Assembly (NCBI GenBank): GCA_000237975.1
Contig: CP003179.1
Span: forward strand, 1,736,001 to 1,800,000
Length of the DNA: 64,000 nt
Direction: 5' to 3'
DNA from: Sulfobacillus acidophilus DSM 10332
GTDB lineage: Bacteria > Bacillota > Sulfobacillia > Sulfobacillales > Sulfobacillaceae
Positions 10,318-15,429 of this stretch are shown here, piece after piece; positions within the stretch are counted from its first letter, which is position 1; every line of letters begins with the position of its first letter. The notes under the pieces are model-generated. The model did no database searches and was not told the origin of the DNA. It worked only from the letters and a program-made list of their open reading frames with translations. The position numbers were made by a program, and so were the translations under genes.

Positions 10318-11184
10318 ATGGTCGTCTGCGAACGCGTAAATGCGGGATATGATCCCGATACCCCCGTGTTACGAGATTTTCACTCCGTGCTGGCCGGGTC
10401 TTACGGCCTCATCGGACCCAGTGGGGCCGGGAAATCCACGCTGTTAAAGAGTTTGCTGGGCCGGGTGCCATATCTGACGGGTACCGTTCATGTCGACGGG
10501 ATCCTCTTAACCCGGCAACCGCGTGAGATTGCGCGCCTCTTCAGCTATGTTCCGCAGGATAACCGGATACCCGGATTATTGACTTTGGGGGAGTATTTGA
10601 CGGAAATTGCGCGATTAGCCGGATTTTCTTCACGGGTTGCCGCCCACCGGACGCGGTGGGCAGCCGATGCCGTGAATCTCGCGGCGGAATGGCATCGGCG
10701 TTTGGCAGGATTTTCCGGCGGTATGAAACGCCGGGCATTGATTGCGGCCGCGTTGGTCCGCGAGACGCCGTGGCTTCTGTTAGACGAGCCGAGTTTGGGA
10801 TTGGATCCGGCGGAGCAAGACACGTTATATCGTTTGATCGGGCGGTTAAAACACGAACGGCGCATCATTTTGGCCACGCAAGTCGTGGACGACCTGGAAC
10901 CGCTCGATCGGATAGGTATTCTGGTTGACGGGGCCATCCGGCACGAGGTGAGCTGGGACGATTTGGTCAACGCCGTGAAAGGACGCGTCTATCGGACCCG
11001 AGAGATTCCTCCCCCACCCCGCGTGGCGGATATCCTGTGGTCGCCCATGCCGGGCGGCTGGATCAAAGTCATCAGTGCGCACCCGGAGGCTCACTGGGAG
11101 CCGTGGCCGGCCACCCCTCAAGACGGCTATTTGTGGATGGTGCGGACTATCCGACAGGAGGCCCGGTATGACCTGGCGCATTGA
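10318..11184 (+). CDS. ABC exporter ATP-binding protein, subunit 1 (His switch replaced by Gln)
   Basis: The start is ATG at 10318 with GGAGGT 12 bases upstream (288 residues). Walker A GPSGAGKST is at 33-41, the Q-loop glutamine at 80, the canonical signature FSGGM at 132-136 and Walker B LLLDEP at 153-158 with the catalytic Glu157. The switch motif reads ATQVVDDLE, so the usual histidine is Gln. The last ~70 residues form an extra domain after the ATPase core. The next gene overlaps by 17 bases. With the second ATPase and two membrane proteins it forms an ABC-2-type export system; the substrate is unknown. Confidence 0.88.
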   Translation: MVVCERVNAGYDPDTPVLRDFHSVLAGSYGLIGPSGAGKSTLLKSLLGRVPYLTGTVHVDGILLTRQPREIARLFSYVPQDNRIPGLLTLGEYLTEIARLAGFSSRVAAHRTRWAADAVNLAAEWHRRLAGFSGGMKRRALIAAALVRETPWLLLDEPSLGLDPAEQDTLYRLIGRLKHERRIILATQVVDDLEPLDRIGILVDGAIRHEVSWDDLVNAVKGRVYRTREIPPPPRVADILWSPMPGGWIKVISAHPEAHWEPWPATPQDGYLWMVRTIRQEARYDLAH

Positions 11185-11920
11185 AGATTTAGGGTATCGG
11201 ATAGGGCACCGGTGGATATTTCGTGGTGTGTCTTTTGGCATTCCTGCCGGCGTGACGGCGCTGATCGGGCCGAACGGGGCCGGTAAAAGTACGTTGCTGC
11301 GACTATTGGCGGGCATTTACACCCCGACTGTAGGCCGGATTCGCCACGAGGGCGAGGAGTCGGCAGCACGGACCGGCTATGTCCCCCAATTTCCGGGGAT
11401 CTATCCTCAATTAACCGTACAAGAATATTTAGAGCGGACCTTGTTGTGGGCTATGCCTCAACAGTCGACGGCAATCCGACGCGAGCAAATTACGGCCGCC
11501 ATGCGCCATTTCCGGCTTCCGTCGGACCGATTGGGGCGATATCTGGGCCAAACCGAACGACGTCAAGTAGCCCTGGCGGAATTATGGCTACGGCAAGTGG
11601 GTCTGGCCCTGGTCGATGAACCGACCGCCGGTCTCGATCCCGAGGAGCGTTTGGTTTTTTGGCAGCAATTAAATCAATGGCAACAACTCACCGCCGTTAC
11701 CCCCGCGGTTTTGGTGACCACCCATTTGTTATCCGAAGTGGAAGCCTACGCCAATCAGGTGATCGTGTTAGGGAATGGACGGATTTTATATGCGGGATCT
11801 CTATCGGGCTTTTTAACCGACATGGAGGTGACGGGGGATTCCGGGGGATTGGCGGAAGCCTCCCGGCGCCTTTTGACCCAGACGAAACCCCAAGGTCAAA
11901 GGAGGGGTTTCGATGCCTAA
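11168..11920 (+). CDS. ABC exporter ATP-binding protein, subunit 2 (degenerate signature motif)
   Basis: ATG at 11168 follows AGGAGG with 6 bases, within the 3' end of the first ATPase gene; 250 residues. Walker A GPNGAGKST is at 34-42, Q74 is present, Walker B reads LALVDEP with Glu151, and the switch histidine His186 is kept (VTTHLLSE). The ABC signature is degraded to LGQTERRQ at 126-133 instead of LSGGQ. Paired with subunit 1 this predicts one canonical and one crippled ATP site. The gene overlaps the following membrane gene by 8 bases. Confidence 0.88.
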   Translation: MTWRIEDLGYRIGHRWIFRGVSFGIPAGVTALIGPNGAGKSTLLRLLAGIYTPTVGRIRHEGEESAARTGYVPQFPGIYPQLTVQEYLERTLLWAMPQQSTAIRREQITAAMRHFRLPSDRLGRYLGQTERRQVALAELWLRQVGLALVDEPTAGLDPEERLVFWQQLNQWQQLTAVTPAVLVTTHLLSEVEAYANQVIVLGNGRILYAGSLSGFLTDMEVTGDSGGLAEASRRLLTQTKPQGQRRGFDA

Positions 11921-13832
11921 AACCTGGCGGGTCGTTGCCGACAACACCTGGCGCCTGGGCTGGCGCGAACCGTTAGTGTGGCTGGAGTTGTTCTTACTGG
12001 GGATTCTCGCCGGATTGTCGGCGATTGCCACGGTCGGCTCGCCCACCGCCGGTGACGCCGCCGTGCAAATGGCTGCCATTACCTACAGCGTAACGCCTTT
12101 TGCACTGGTCTTGATCATTGGGCAAGTAGGACAACCCGACGACGAAGCTCATTGGTGGGGACTCGTGTGTCCCCTGAACTACGTTGGCGGGCGGGCAGCG
12201 GGGTTTTTACTTCTCGGTCTGGCGATTGAGGGACTGGTCGGGTTGGCCGGATGGCTTTTGATGACGGTATGGGCCGGTACCGACGCGCTATCGGGGCTCA
12301 TGTGGACCGGGTGGTGGCTTCTCATCATGACGCCGAGCCTAGCGTTGGTCGTCTCCTTTTATTTGTGGTTAAGACGCCGTGTGTCGCTGGCCGCTTATTA
12401 CCCGATCGCGATTCTGTCGGCACTGGTGATCGCGTTTTCGGAATATAAGTCCGCCCTATGGTTGACGGTGCTGCCGCATTGGCCTTTTTGGAACCCCTTC
12501 CCCGCTTTTTTGGAATTAGGCTTAGCTTTGCCGCCCCCCTTGCTTCTGCCGTTGGCGGCGAACGGCTGGCTTTGGCTGAACCGGTTGGTCGTGCTGGGAG
12601 TCGCCGGATTGATATTGTGGATCGCCATGAAACCTTCGTCGTCTTACGCGGCCTCCGATTCGAGGCTTTCTCGAGCCTGGCGTGGGGTTTTCGGAGGACT
12701 TTTGATGACGACGGGCGGACTAGCCGTTCTTTTATGGCATATCTCGCGGGTGCTGGCGCCGCTCCCTTTACCGCAACCGATTTCGCTATCCCAATCGATG
12801 ACGATTCGGGGGGCGGTGGTAACCGTTCACCTCCATCCTCAAACCGGACGGTTCACCGGCATCTGGCGCGGGACCCTCGATCGTGTGCCGTCGCGGGCAC
12901 CGGTGACCTTCCTTTTGAATGCGGGGCTGAGGGTGACGCGGGTGACGCTGGGGGGGCACCCCCTTCCGGTGACGGAAAGTCGCGGGCTTCAACCCGCAAC
13001 CGCCGACCGCATCTGGTCGGTGGGCGATCTGCCCTTGCGGGCACGCATCACCGTGACATATCAAGGGACCATGCTTCCCCGTCCGGCCTGGCTACCCTAT
13101 CCTCCCTGGGGCGTGGGCCACCCTTATCCGACGTTAATGGCCGGACAGGATCGGGTATTCCTGGCAGGGGATGGCGGCTGGCTTCCTCAGTGGTCAACAC
13201 CGGATCCCAAGACGCGGGTGGTCATTGACGGCTTATCGCGGCGCTATCCCGTACTCACCGATTTGAGGCCAGCCCCTATGGGGGGGCTTACAGGATCCCT
13301 TCAAAAAGCCTATATCGTGAACGCCCCGCTTTCCCATCGGGGCATCGCGCCCTGGATCGTCTGGTACCGGCCCGGTGCATATCAAACCGTGACCGGATTG
13401 GCGCCTTACGGTCGGGCGTGGAGGATTTTGCATCGGACGATCCCTGGATTACCCGCGCTTACCGTCGTGCCGTCTCCGGTGGTCAGTCATACCACCGTGG
13501 CGGGATCCCTCTTGGTGTGGAGTGAAGCGTTTTGGTACTCCCGCCCCCGTGATGTCTTGGCGGACAGCGGGCAACAACCGACGGTCTTGGCGGCGGCCAG
13601 TCGCCTATTAATTTGGACGGCGCCCCGACCGGTGAATCCCGGTGTGCTCGGCCGCTTGCTGTTAGCGGTTTTTCGCCGACAACCGCAAGCCCGATCGCTA
13701 AAAGAAGCTATCCGCGAAGGCCGGTTGCCGGGATACGGACCTTTATCCCCTTCCGAACGTCTGGCTCTCTTGCAAGCAATCGGCCAACCGGCCTCTACTC
13801 AACAATTGACAAGGTGGTGGCGATCGCTATGA
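11913..13832 (+). CDS. ABC-2-type permease fused to a large extracytoplasmic domain, possibly M1-peptidase-like
   Basis: This 639-residue protein has about eight hydrophobic segments in residues 20-280 (roughly 22-40, 58-72, 95-120, 130-152, 160-175, 200-216, 222-240, 258-278), then ~360 residues predicted outside the membrane. That part is beta-rich (VTVHLHPQ, RITVTYQG) and has an FLAGDGGWLPQ stretch that reminds me of M1-aminopeptidase-type ectodomains fused to some ABC permeases. No HExxH zinc motif occurs anywhere, so any peptidase relation would be inactive. AAAGGAGGGG precedes the ATG. The M1 relation is a guess from pattern; the permease part is more secure. Confidence 0.72.
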   Translation: MPKTWRVVADNTWRLGWREPLVWLELFLLGILAGLSAIATVGSPTAGDAAVQMAAITYSVTPFALVLIIGQVGQPDDEAHWWGLVCPLNYVGGRAAGFLLLGLAIEGLVGLAGWLLMTVWAGTDALSGLMWTGWWLLIMTPSLALVVSFYLWLRRRVSLAAYYPIAILSALVIAFSEYKSALWLTVLPHWPFWNPFPAFLELGLALPPPLLLPLAANGWLWLNRLVVLGVAGLILWIAMKPSSSYAASDSRLSRAWRGVFGGLLMTTGGLAVLLWHISRVLAPLPLPQPISLSQSMTIRGAVVTVHLHPQTGRFTGIWRGTLDRVPSRAPVTFLLNAGLRVTRVTLGGHPLPVTESRGLQPATADRIWSVGDLPLRARITVTYQGTMLPRPAWLPYPPWGVGHPYPTLMAGQDRVFLAGDGGWLPQWSTPDPKTRVVIDGLSRRYPVLTDLRPAPMGGLTGSLQKAYIVNAPLSHRGIAPWIVWYRPGAYQTVTGLAPYGRAWRILHRTIPGLPALTVVPSPVVSHTTVAGSLLVWSEAFWYSRPRDVLADSGQQPTVLAAASRLLIWTAPRPVNPGVLGRLLLAVFRRQPQARSLKEAIREGRLPGYGPLSPSERLALLQAIGQPASTQQLTRWWRSL

Positions 13833-14503
13833 CCTCCAGGTGGATGCGCATCCGCTATGAATGGACGGTGTTAAAAAGTCCCAATTTGGGATTGGTACCG
13901 CTGGCGCTTTTACTGCTGGGACTAACTCATGGGGTTCTCGAACTGGCTTCTCGGTGGGATCGCCACTTTATTGAAAATATGGAGTCTTTTTTTCCCCTGG
14001 CCATTGCCTTGACAACGGTCCCATTGGGGATAATCGACCGGGAGGCCGGGGTGTTGGAGCATGAAATGACACTCCCTTTGGCGGCGATTACCGGATGGCG
14101 GCTGGCCATTTTGTGGACGGTTTTATGGGCCGAAATTCTCATTGGGGTCGCGATTTTAGATAAGCTGTGGGGCCCGGTGCCTTTTTGGGCCGGGGTATTC
14201 GCCGCGCTCGGCCCTGCTCTCTGGCTCTCCGCCTTGGGACTATGGGCGACCTTGATTTTCCCCCGCGTCGCGTTCGGCTATCTCGTCATCTTGGCGTTAC
14301 CGGTGACAGACCTCATTTTGCGGGTTTTGGGCGCTTTTAACGCCATTCCCGGATTACAGCTGATCGATCTTTTTGCCTACCGTTGGAACATCCCCGCCGT
14401 ACCTTGGCCGTGGGTTAAGACGGTTATGGGGGTTGTCGGCTTGGTCGGCCTCACGATGGCCATCCGGTGGCGACGACGCTGGGTGGAACGGGCTTTCCTG
14501 TAA
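13829..14503 (+). CDS. ABC-2-type transporter membrane subunit
   Basis: ATG at 13829 overlaps the stop of the previous gene as ATGA, which fixes the start; the product is 224 residues. It has about six hydrophobic helices (near 20-35, 52-65, 87-105, 117-150, 153-175 and 196-212) and ends in a basic tail (RWRRRWVERAFL). There is no recognisable motif beyond the ABC-2 permease pattern. It is probably the partner of the fused permease, giving an asymmetric transporter. It is the last gene of the four-gene operon and is followed by a hairpin. Confidence 0.75.
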   Translation: MTSRWMRIRYEWTVLKSPNLGLVPLALLLLGLTHGVLELASRWDRHFIENMESFFPLAIALTTVPLGIIDREAGVLEHEMTLPLAAITGWRLAILWTVLWAEILIGVAILDKLWGPVPFWAGVFAALGPALWLSALGLWATLIFPRVAFGYLVILALPVTDLILRVLGAFNAIPGLQLIDLFAYRWNIPAVPWPWVKTVMGVVGLVGLTMAIRWRRRWVERAFL

Positions 14504-14519
14504 GGGGGTCAAGTTCGGT

Positions 14520-14560
14520 TCCCGGCCCGTCGTCAGCCTTTAGGTGACGGTGGGCCGGGA
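14520..14560. terminator. Hairpin between convergent genes
   Basis: A 16-bp inverted repeat with two mismatches (TCCCGGCCCGTCGTCA / TGACGGTGGGCCGGGA) and a 9-base loop sits between the ABC operon and the convergent SDR. No T tract follows on either strand, so it may act as a weak bidirectional terminator or as an mRNA 3' end. Confidence 0.6.
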
Positions 14561-14571
14561 AGTTCCCCACG

Positions 14572-15429
14572 TTACGGTGTCGGTTTTTTGCCGGGCATTT
14601 GAGCCCGAATCGATTCCCATTGGTCCGGGGTCAGGCGGGTCAAATGATTAAACATTCCGGCTCCTTGAAGCCATTCCCCGCCATCAATGGTGACCACCTC
14701 GCCATTGATGTACTCCGCCTGATCCGATATCAAATACGCGGCCAAATTGGTCAGCTCCTCATAACGTCCTACACGGCCTAAGGGAACGCGGTCGGTGACG
14801 CTTTGGGCCAATTCGTCCGTGGGCATGAGACGGGACCAGGCACCTTCGGTCGGAAACGGTCCAGGGGCAATGGCGACCGAGCGGATACCATAATGGGCCC
14901 ATTCGACCGCCAACGAGCGCGTCATCGCCAACACGCCGGCTTTCGCCGCCGCCGACGGCACCACGTAGCCCGAACCGGTCCACGCGTAGGTGGTGACGAT
15001 ATTAAGAATAGTGCCCCGGTGTCCCGCGGCAATCCATCGCTTGCCGGCTTCTAGCGAGGCATAAAAACTACCATGCAATACGATATTGAGAATCGCGTCG
15101 ACGGCCCGCGGGGATAGGTTTTCGGTCGGACTGATAAAGTTACCGGCGGCGTTATTGACTAAGACGTCCAATTGTCCATAGTGGGCGTAGATGGCGTCAA
15201 AAGCCTGATGGAGCGTGTCCGGGTTTCGGATGTCGGTAGCAAACGGAAAGACGGCAATGCCGGCTTGGGCAAATTCTTCGGCGGTTTCGTGTAACACGTT
15301 TTCTCGCCGTCCAATAATCGCCAGGCGTGCCCCCAACTGCCCAAAGCGCTGTCCCATCAGCTTGCCGAGTCCGGTGCCGCCACCGGTAATCAGGACGACT
15401 TTATCTTTTAATAAATCTGCGACAAACAT
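14572..15429 (-). CDS. 2,4-dienoyl-CoA reductase-type SDR
   Basis: The 285-residue protein has the NADP motif TGGGTGLG at 15-22. Its active-site segment matches mitochondrial 2,4-dienoyl-CoA reductase: Tyr148, Ser159 and Lys163 have the same spacing as Tyr199, Ser210 and Lys214 of DECR1, and the sequence between (TGSGYVVPSAAAKAG) is nearly that of the mammalian enzyme. Such enzymes reduce 2,4-dienoyl-CoA to 3-enoyl-CoA so that unsaturated acyl chains can enter beta-oxidation. AAGGAG precedes the ATG. It is the last gene of the acyl-CoA operon and a paralogue of the product of 19492-20289. Confidence 0.9.
   Translation of the reverse strand: MFVADLLKDKVVLITGGGTGLGKLMGQRFGQLGARLAIIGRRENVLHETAEEFAQAGIAVFPFATDIRNPDTLHQAFDAIYAHYGQLDVLVNNAAGNFISPTENLSPRAVDAILNIVLHGSFYASLEAGKRWIAAGHRGTILNIVTTYAWTGSGYVVPSAAAKAGVLAMTRSLAVEWAHYGIRSVAIAPGPFPTEGAWSRLMPTDELAQSVTDRVPLGRVGRYEELTNLAAYLISDQAEYINGEVVTIDGGEWLQGAGMFNHLTRLTPDQWESIRAQMPGKKPTP

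Follow-up and report, generated by a model that had tools for sequence, protein, structure and literature searches.

Organization of the locus

The window considered here, a stretch of 64,000 nucleotides from the chromosome of Sulfobacillus acidophilus NAL-T, contains at positions 10318-14503 a block of four same-strand genes that a preliminary description, made from the sequence alone, had recognized as a possible ATP-binding cassette (ABC) exporter with two ATPases and two permeases. These genes, designated A1, A2, P1 and P2 in their order of occurrence (Table 1), overlap their neighbors by 17, 8 and 4 bases. A strong hairpin follows P2, in the interval between that gene and a convergent SDR (short-chain dehydrogenase/reductase) gene, and the genes flanking the block on either side lie on the opposite strand; the block therefore has the appearance of a stand-alone operon, for which the hairpin is the probable bidirectional terminator. 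A promoter scan was uninformative (one found, against 2.1 expected), and searches of Pfam and NCBIfam provided no name for either permease.

Table 1. Features of the four-gene block, in window coordinates (aa, amino acids; pLDDT, predicted local distance difference test; MFE, minimum free energy)
Feature	Position	Strand	Details
A1, ABC ATPase 1 (288 aa)	10318-11184	+	Walker A 10414-10440; FSGGM 10711-10725; Walker B DE 10783-10788; Gln188 10879-10881
A2, ABC ATPase 2 (250 aa)	11168-11920	+	Walker A 11267-11293; LGQTE 11543-11557; Walker B DE 11615-11620; His186 11723-11725
P1, permease 1 (639 aa), NosY-like ABC-2 membrane domain and ectodomain	11913-13832	+	AlphaFold2 pLDDT 77
P1 ectodomain, residues 288-639	12774-13829	+	M1 aminopeptidase N-terminal and catalytic-domain fold, without HEXXH
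P2, permease 2 (224 aa), stand-alone ABC-2 membrane domain	13829-14503	+	AlphaFold2 pLDDT 88
Strong hairpin between convergent P2 and SDR genes	14519-14561		MFE -40.1 kcal/mol for 14505-14575, z -5.3

Motifs of the two ATPases

Both ATPases match PF00005 (E 1e-21 in each case), find their best solved relatives in the nucleotide-binding domains (NBDs) of ABCA proteins and also in NosF, and display the DrrA/ABCA-like character of the NBDs of type V (ABC-2) exporters. A1 combines the Walker A motif GPSGAGKST, the signature FSGGM and the Walker B motif LLLDEP with an H-loop (ATQVVDD) in which Gln188 occupies the position of the switch histidine; its catalytic glutamate (within LLLDEP) and its Q-loop glutamine are both retained. 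A2 carries the Walker A motif GPNGAGKST, the Walker B motif LVDEP and an H-loop (VTTHLL) with an intact His186, together with the aberrant signature YLGQTERRQ. When aligned to ABCA1 and ABCA3 with HMMER, Gln188 of A1 and His186 of A2 both fall on the H-loop histidine, and the LGQTE core of A2 falls on the LSGGM/YSGG signature, so that the motifs of the two proteins are not located elsewhere. The preliminary reading of these motifs, as a normal signature with a glutamine at the switch position in A1 and a retained histidine with the signature LGQTERRQ in A2, was thus correct.

The genome encodes approximately 50 ABC ATPase domains. Of these, only A1, two LivF/UrtE-like proteins (EQN) and the second half of one RbsA-like protein do not have the H-loop histidine, and the most deviant signature of all is that of A2. 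The deviations in A1 and A2 are not chance; an H-loop glutamine is not by itself unique in the genome, but its combination with a degenerate-signature partner is. The two LivF/UrtE-like ATPases, L066 and L054, are found at 3159000-3169985 of contig G000:C1, where their H-loops read AEQN and VEQN, and they represent a second natural case of a histidine-less partner in this genome. A further peculiarity of the window is that A2 (at 11830-11920) is without the conserved C-terminal tail (P-x-L-x-D-A/G-Y-L) present in all of its relatives; A1 retains the matching tail.

Distribution and conservation

Relatives of P1 were found in 14 of the 34 genomes of the family, and the P1 and P2 profiles matched the same 23 genomes of the class, two weak outliers each aside, with strong P2 matches in all 23. 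A profile scan of genome contigs with P1 returned 16 loci; the corresponding scan with the single P1 protein gave no match, a single-protein search of 299 genomes of the phylum recovered only the genome of origin, and a search of plasmids gave no match. Named carriers include metagenome bins of Sulfobacillus benefaciens and S. acidophilus, as well as one isolate of the Alicyclobacillaceae. In divergent genomes all four reading frames remain open, and the order A1-A2-P1-P2 is retained wherever the contig reaches, with contig ends removing A1 or both ATPases in some relatives.

A tally of motifs across 21 homologues of A1 and 22 of A2 demonstrated that the two subunits have lost different residues. 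The Walker A lysine is invariant in both (21/21 and 22/22), whereas the H-loop histidine is present in just one A1 but in all 22 A2 proteins, and the signature serine is found in 21/21 A1 and 6/22 A2 sequences (with a full SGG signature in 18/21 and 0/22, respectively). The catalytic glutamate is retained in 13 of the A1 homologues, having been lost in the other 8/21, as compared to 22/22 for A2; the Q-loop glutamine is retained in 14/21 and 20/22. Fisher tests of A1 against A2 gave p values of 2e-11 for the histidine, 4e-7 for the serine and 0.0014 for the glutamate, which are descriptive only, as they treat related sequences as independent. In A1 the histidine has drifted to Q, T, S, R or I and the glutamate to Q, H, G or T, and the A2 signature takes many forms. 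The least degenerate of these, LDGGQ with both glycines, is found in relatives L029 and L030, whose partner A1 proteins have a serine in the H-loop. The checks proposed at the outset, that gene order and both substitutions should recur and that related operons should be examined for full motif sets in both ATPases, were answered in the same direction: in no relative surveyed do both ATPases possess a full set. The lineage-specific losses of the Walker B glutamate and Q-loop glutamine in A1 had not been noted in the preliminary description.

The neighborhood of the block is less constant. SDR and FAD (flavin adenine dinucleotide)-oxidase neighbors are common to only part of the relatives, and four of them (L031, L032, L033 and L035) share a predicted secreted or membrane-anchored protein of approximately 460-520 aa, located approximately 0.1-1 kb upstream of A1 and on the same strand in three of the four.

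Permease folds and the P1 ectodomain

The AlphaFold2 models of both permeases display the membrane-domain fold of type V (ABC-2) exporters. Residues 3-243 of P1 superimpose on NosY with Z 21.0 and a root-mean-square deviation (rmsd) of 2.7 over 223 aligned residues, and the model of P2 matches NosY (Z 14.4), ABCG5/G8 (Z 13.0) and ABCA4 (Z 12.3). Weak ABC2_membrane matches in Pfam were seen only for some P1 homologues, and a comparison by profile shows no clear similarity between the membrane domain of P1 and that of P2 (E 0.18); their kinship therefore rests on their common fold. The earlier suggestion of an ABC-2 type system with two unequal permeases is consistent with these models.

P1 owes its length to an ectodomain of approximately 350 residues, overlooked in the preliminary description, that is joined to the membrane domain by a further helix (residues 251-281). 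The model of this domain resembles IRAP, ERAP1 and LTA4H (Foldseek E ~1e-8; VIA Z ~13, with 310-319 residues aligned at an rmsd of ~7), and the size of that deviation indicates that its two lobes are probably arranged differently from those of M1 aminopeptidases. Alignment with hhalign of its N-terminal part to a profile of active M1 enzymes gave E 2.5e-5, as compared to 0.35 for the reversed profile and 0.14 for the best of 50 column shuffles, such that structure and profiles independently assign to it the N-terminal and catalytic-domain fold of the M1 family. P1 itself has no match to PF01433, and the HEXXH(18)E zinc site is absent, with no HEXXH in any of approximately two dozen P1 homologues examined. 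Because the number of helices is odd, the ectodomain of the modeled protein would lie at the outer face of the membrane.

Fusions of ABC-2 permeases to active M1 peptidases are annotated in other phyla. In genomes of the class and phylum, no such fusion was found among the long M1 frames retrieved (L178-L191), which contain HEXXH, have no ABC-2 domain as judged by transmembrane-helix count, and do not match the P1 or P2 profiles where tested.

Site logic, proposed mechanism and alternative explanations

The losses described above converge on a single composite site, formed by the Walker motifs and H-loop of A1 together with the signature of A2, and the other composite site (Walker motifs and histidine of A2, signature of A1) is complete in nearly all relatives. 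Two distinct NBDs have thus suffered losses in the same composite site. An A1:A1 or A2:A2 homodimer would contain no complete site, and an A1:A2 pair exactly one, which, together with the complementarity of the losses, supports the view that A1 and A2 are obligate partners in a heterodimer that hydrolyzes ATP at one site. The proposal that the A1 site is degenerate and the A2 site canonical thus gains support from two observations: the entire block is conserved, and the losses in related genomes are complementary. ATP-driven export by an A1-A2-P1-P2 assembly is predicted, and we assign a probability of roughly 0.7 to the interpretation that the four proteins form one heterotetrameric type V exporter with a single hydrolytic site.

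In such an exporter, A1 and A2 would associate head-to-tail, and ATP would be bound and hydrolyzed at the site composed of the A2 Walker A and B motifs, Q-loop and histidine and the FSGGM signature of A1. According to the published scheme for transporters with degenerate sites, one site hydrolyzes ATP and ATP at the other holds the dimer together. The site that pairs the A1 Walker motifs with the degenerate A2 signature would likewise be expected to bind ATP, since the Walker A lysine is retained in all A1 proteins, with little or no hydrolysis, and might act mainly as a hinge or as an ATP 'glue' for the dimer, a role that has been suggested for pumps resembling Pdr5. P1 and P2 would supply two unequal halves of the membrane channel, and the seventh helix of P1 would present the inactive M1-like domain on the outer side of the membrane, with a possible role in binding or gating an exported (or sensed) ligand, perhaps a peptide.

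Four observations weigh against this interpretation. The occurrence of an H-loop glutamine in the two LivF/UrtE-like ATPases of the same genome means that this residue is not proof of inactivity; the patchy distribution within the family indicates that the block is dispensable; in relative L033 the A1 signature reads VSCAT, so that neither composite site is complete; and most relatives have no conserved gene for a substrate, for processing or for biosynthesis next to the block, for which reason the ligand can only be guessed.

The first of these observations, along with the retention of the catalytic glutamate and Q-loop glutamine in A1 of the window and of LDGGQ or LSxxx signatures in some A2 relatives, would be accommodated by a heterodimer in which both sites hydrolyze ATP and the substitutions are tolerated and merely tune the rate. 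That explanation is unlikely when set against the loss of the glutamate in 8 and the Q-loop glutamine in 7 of the 21 A1 proteins, as compared to zero losses of the glutamate in A2. Also improbable, and ranked just after it, is that the four genes encode two separate homodimeric transporters, A1 acting with one permease and A2 with the other, as is thought to be the case for staphylococcal clusters of such composition (PmtAB/PmtCD and LugEF/LugGH), of which PmtCD has been solved with C2 symmetry; in nearly all relatives neither homodimer would possess a complete site, since A1 is without the histidine and A2 without the signature, and P1 and P2 co-occur as single copies in the same genomes. Finally, a decaying or non-transporting membrane assembly such as a sensor, with ATP sites under relaxed selection, might be read from the patchy presence, the signature loss in L033 and the shortened A2 C-terminus in the window, but is very unlikely given four open frames across divergent genomes and the invariance of the A2 histidine, the A2 glutamate and the A1 signature serine.

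Probable order of decay and single-ATPase relatives

For a tree of P1 and P2, the root was chosen from taxonomy and placed on L125, the most distant of the lineages. In L125, a complete A1 (FSGGM, Gln, Glu and His) is found beside a degenerate A2 signature (LGAAE). All other lineages have lost the A1 histidine, and several are also without the glutamate or the Q-loop glutamine. The composition of that single lineage suggests that the A2 signature decayed first, and the catalytic residues of A1 later. The A1 sequences form one monophyletic group (support 0.99) and the A2 sequences another (support 1.0), and the pair is therefore older than the split of these lineages; together they nest in a clade with the ABC-2 ATPases of single-ATPase relatives (support 0.91).

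One such relative, L128 (3463-7800), is followed by a gene for an ECF (extracytoplasmic function) sigma factor and a second ABC unit, and could represent a regulated form of this kind of transporter. Three-gene sets comprising a long-ectodomain permease, a small P2-like permease and one ATPase (FSGGM, DEP) are found in L130 (2561-6402) and L131 (minus strand); the P1 profile has a weak match in the permease of L130 (E 0.003) and none in that of L131.

Significance and comparison with known systems

The preliminary description had considered an asymmetric system of this type to be little described. That statement does not hold for unequal sites in ABC-2 type exporters, which are known from Pdr5, ABCG5/G8 and ABCA proteins, but the bacterial four-polypeptide version was not found in the literature searched, which also yielded no bacterial heteromeric type V exporter with a degenerate site, no fusion of an M1 protein to an ABC permease, and no pseudo-M1 extracytoplasmic domain on an ABC-2 permease. 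What is new here is a bacterial type V exporter of four polypeptides, predicted to have one hydrolytic site and bearing a pseudo-M1 ectodomain, and the four-gene arrangement is real and conserved. A more far-reaching proposal, offered tentatively and with considerable doubt, is that a bacterial lineage independently evolved a Pdr5-like, one-site asymmetric power cycle in such an exporter, in a readable order (the A2 signature, the A1 histidine, and then the A1 glutamate or glutamine in several lineages), and coupled it to a peptide-binding outer pseudo-aminopeptidase ectodomain. If true, the block would represent a peptide exporter or peptide-sensing pump of a previously undescribed kind.

Most studies of degenerate ATP sites have so far dealt with fused or type IV transporters, the halves of which are hard to separate. 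In this block both ATPases and both permeases are separate genes, and natural intermediates form a series that extends from a relative with a single canonical ATPase, through a lineage degenerate in its signature only, to those in which the histidine, and then also the glutamate, has been lost; the purpose of a degenerate site should therefore be testable by mixing natural subunits. The pseudo-M1 domain also adds a type of extracytoplasmic domain to those carried by ABC-2 permeases.

The solved NosDFY complex, whose NosY subunit is the best structural match of both permease models, has NosF as its one ATPase and NosY as its one permease, and the partner protein NosD does not represent a fused M1 fold. 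The single-ATPase relative L128 (genome G363) shares with the block an ATPase, an ABC-2 permease that matches P1 by profile (E 1.2e-7) and bears an M1-like ectodomain without HEXXH, and another, small ABC-2-like permease, but its adjacent ATPase is the only one and has all of its motifs intact (YSGGT, DEP, STH), and the sigma factor gene follows. For the ectodomain, a precedent for an inactive M1 fold as a peptide binder is provided by yeast Tma108, an M1 family member treated among inactive homologues that binds nascent peptides; while that protein is ribosome-associated and not fused to a transporter, its behavior makes peptides a reasonable guess for the ligand of P1.

With respect to ATP-site asymmetry, TM287/288 and other type IV heterodimeric exporters likewise pair one consensus and one degenerate site, but have a type IV membrane fold and fused NBDs, and the staphylococcal Pmt and Lug systems differ in the two-transporter organization proposed for them. 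ABCG5/G8, a type V exporter, is a heterodimer with unequal membrane halves, and one of its sites is degenerate; it is, however, built from two fused half-transporters, and its degenerate site combines an altered signature with a Walker A Lys-to-Arg change, as compared to the lysine found in every A1. A degenerate site is found in some ABCA proteins as well. A close parallel is yeast Pdr5, a type V protein with one hydrolytic site, in which the half with the good signature (VSGGE, in NBD1) is without catalytic residues, and the half with intact Walker motifs and H-loop carries the mutated signature LNVEQ (in NBD2), just as A1 and A2 divide these features between them. Pdr5 differs in being a single eukaryotic polypeptide with an NBD-first order and no M1-like ectodomain, and the two asymmetries are assumed to be separate in origin. 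PDR/ABCG proteins are single chains in which the NBD precedes the membrane domain, and the four domains of the block are separate genes; by analogy, then, the block would work like Pdr5, yet is not a member of the PDR/ABCG subfamily.
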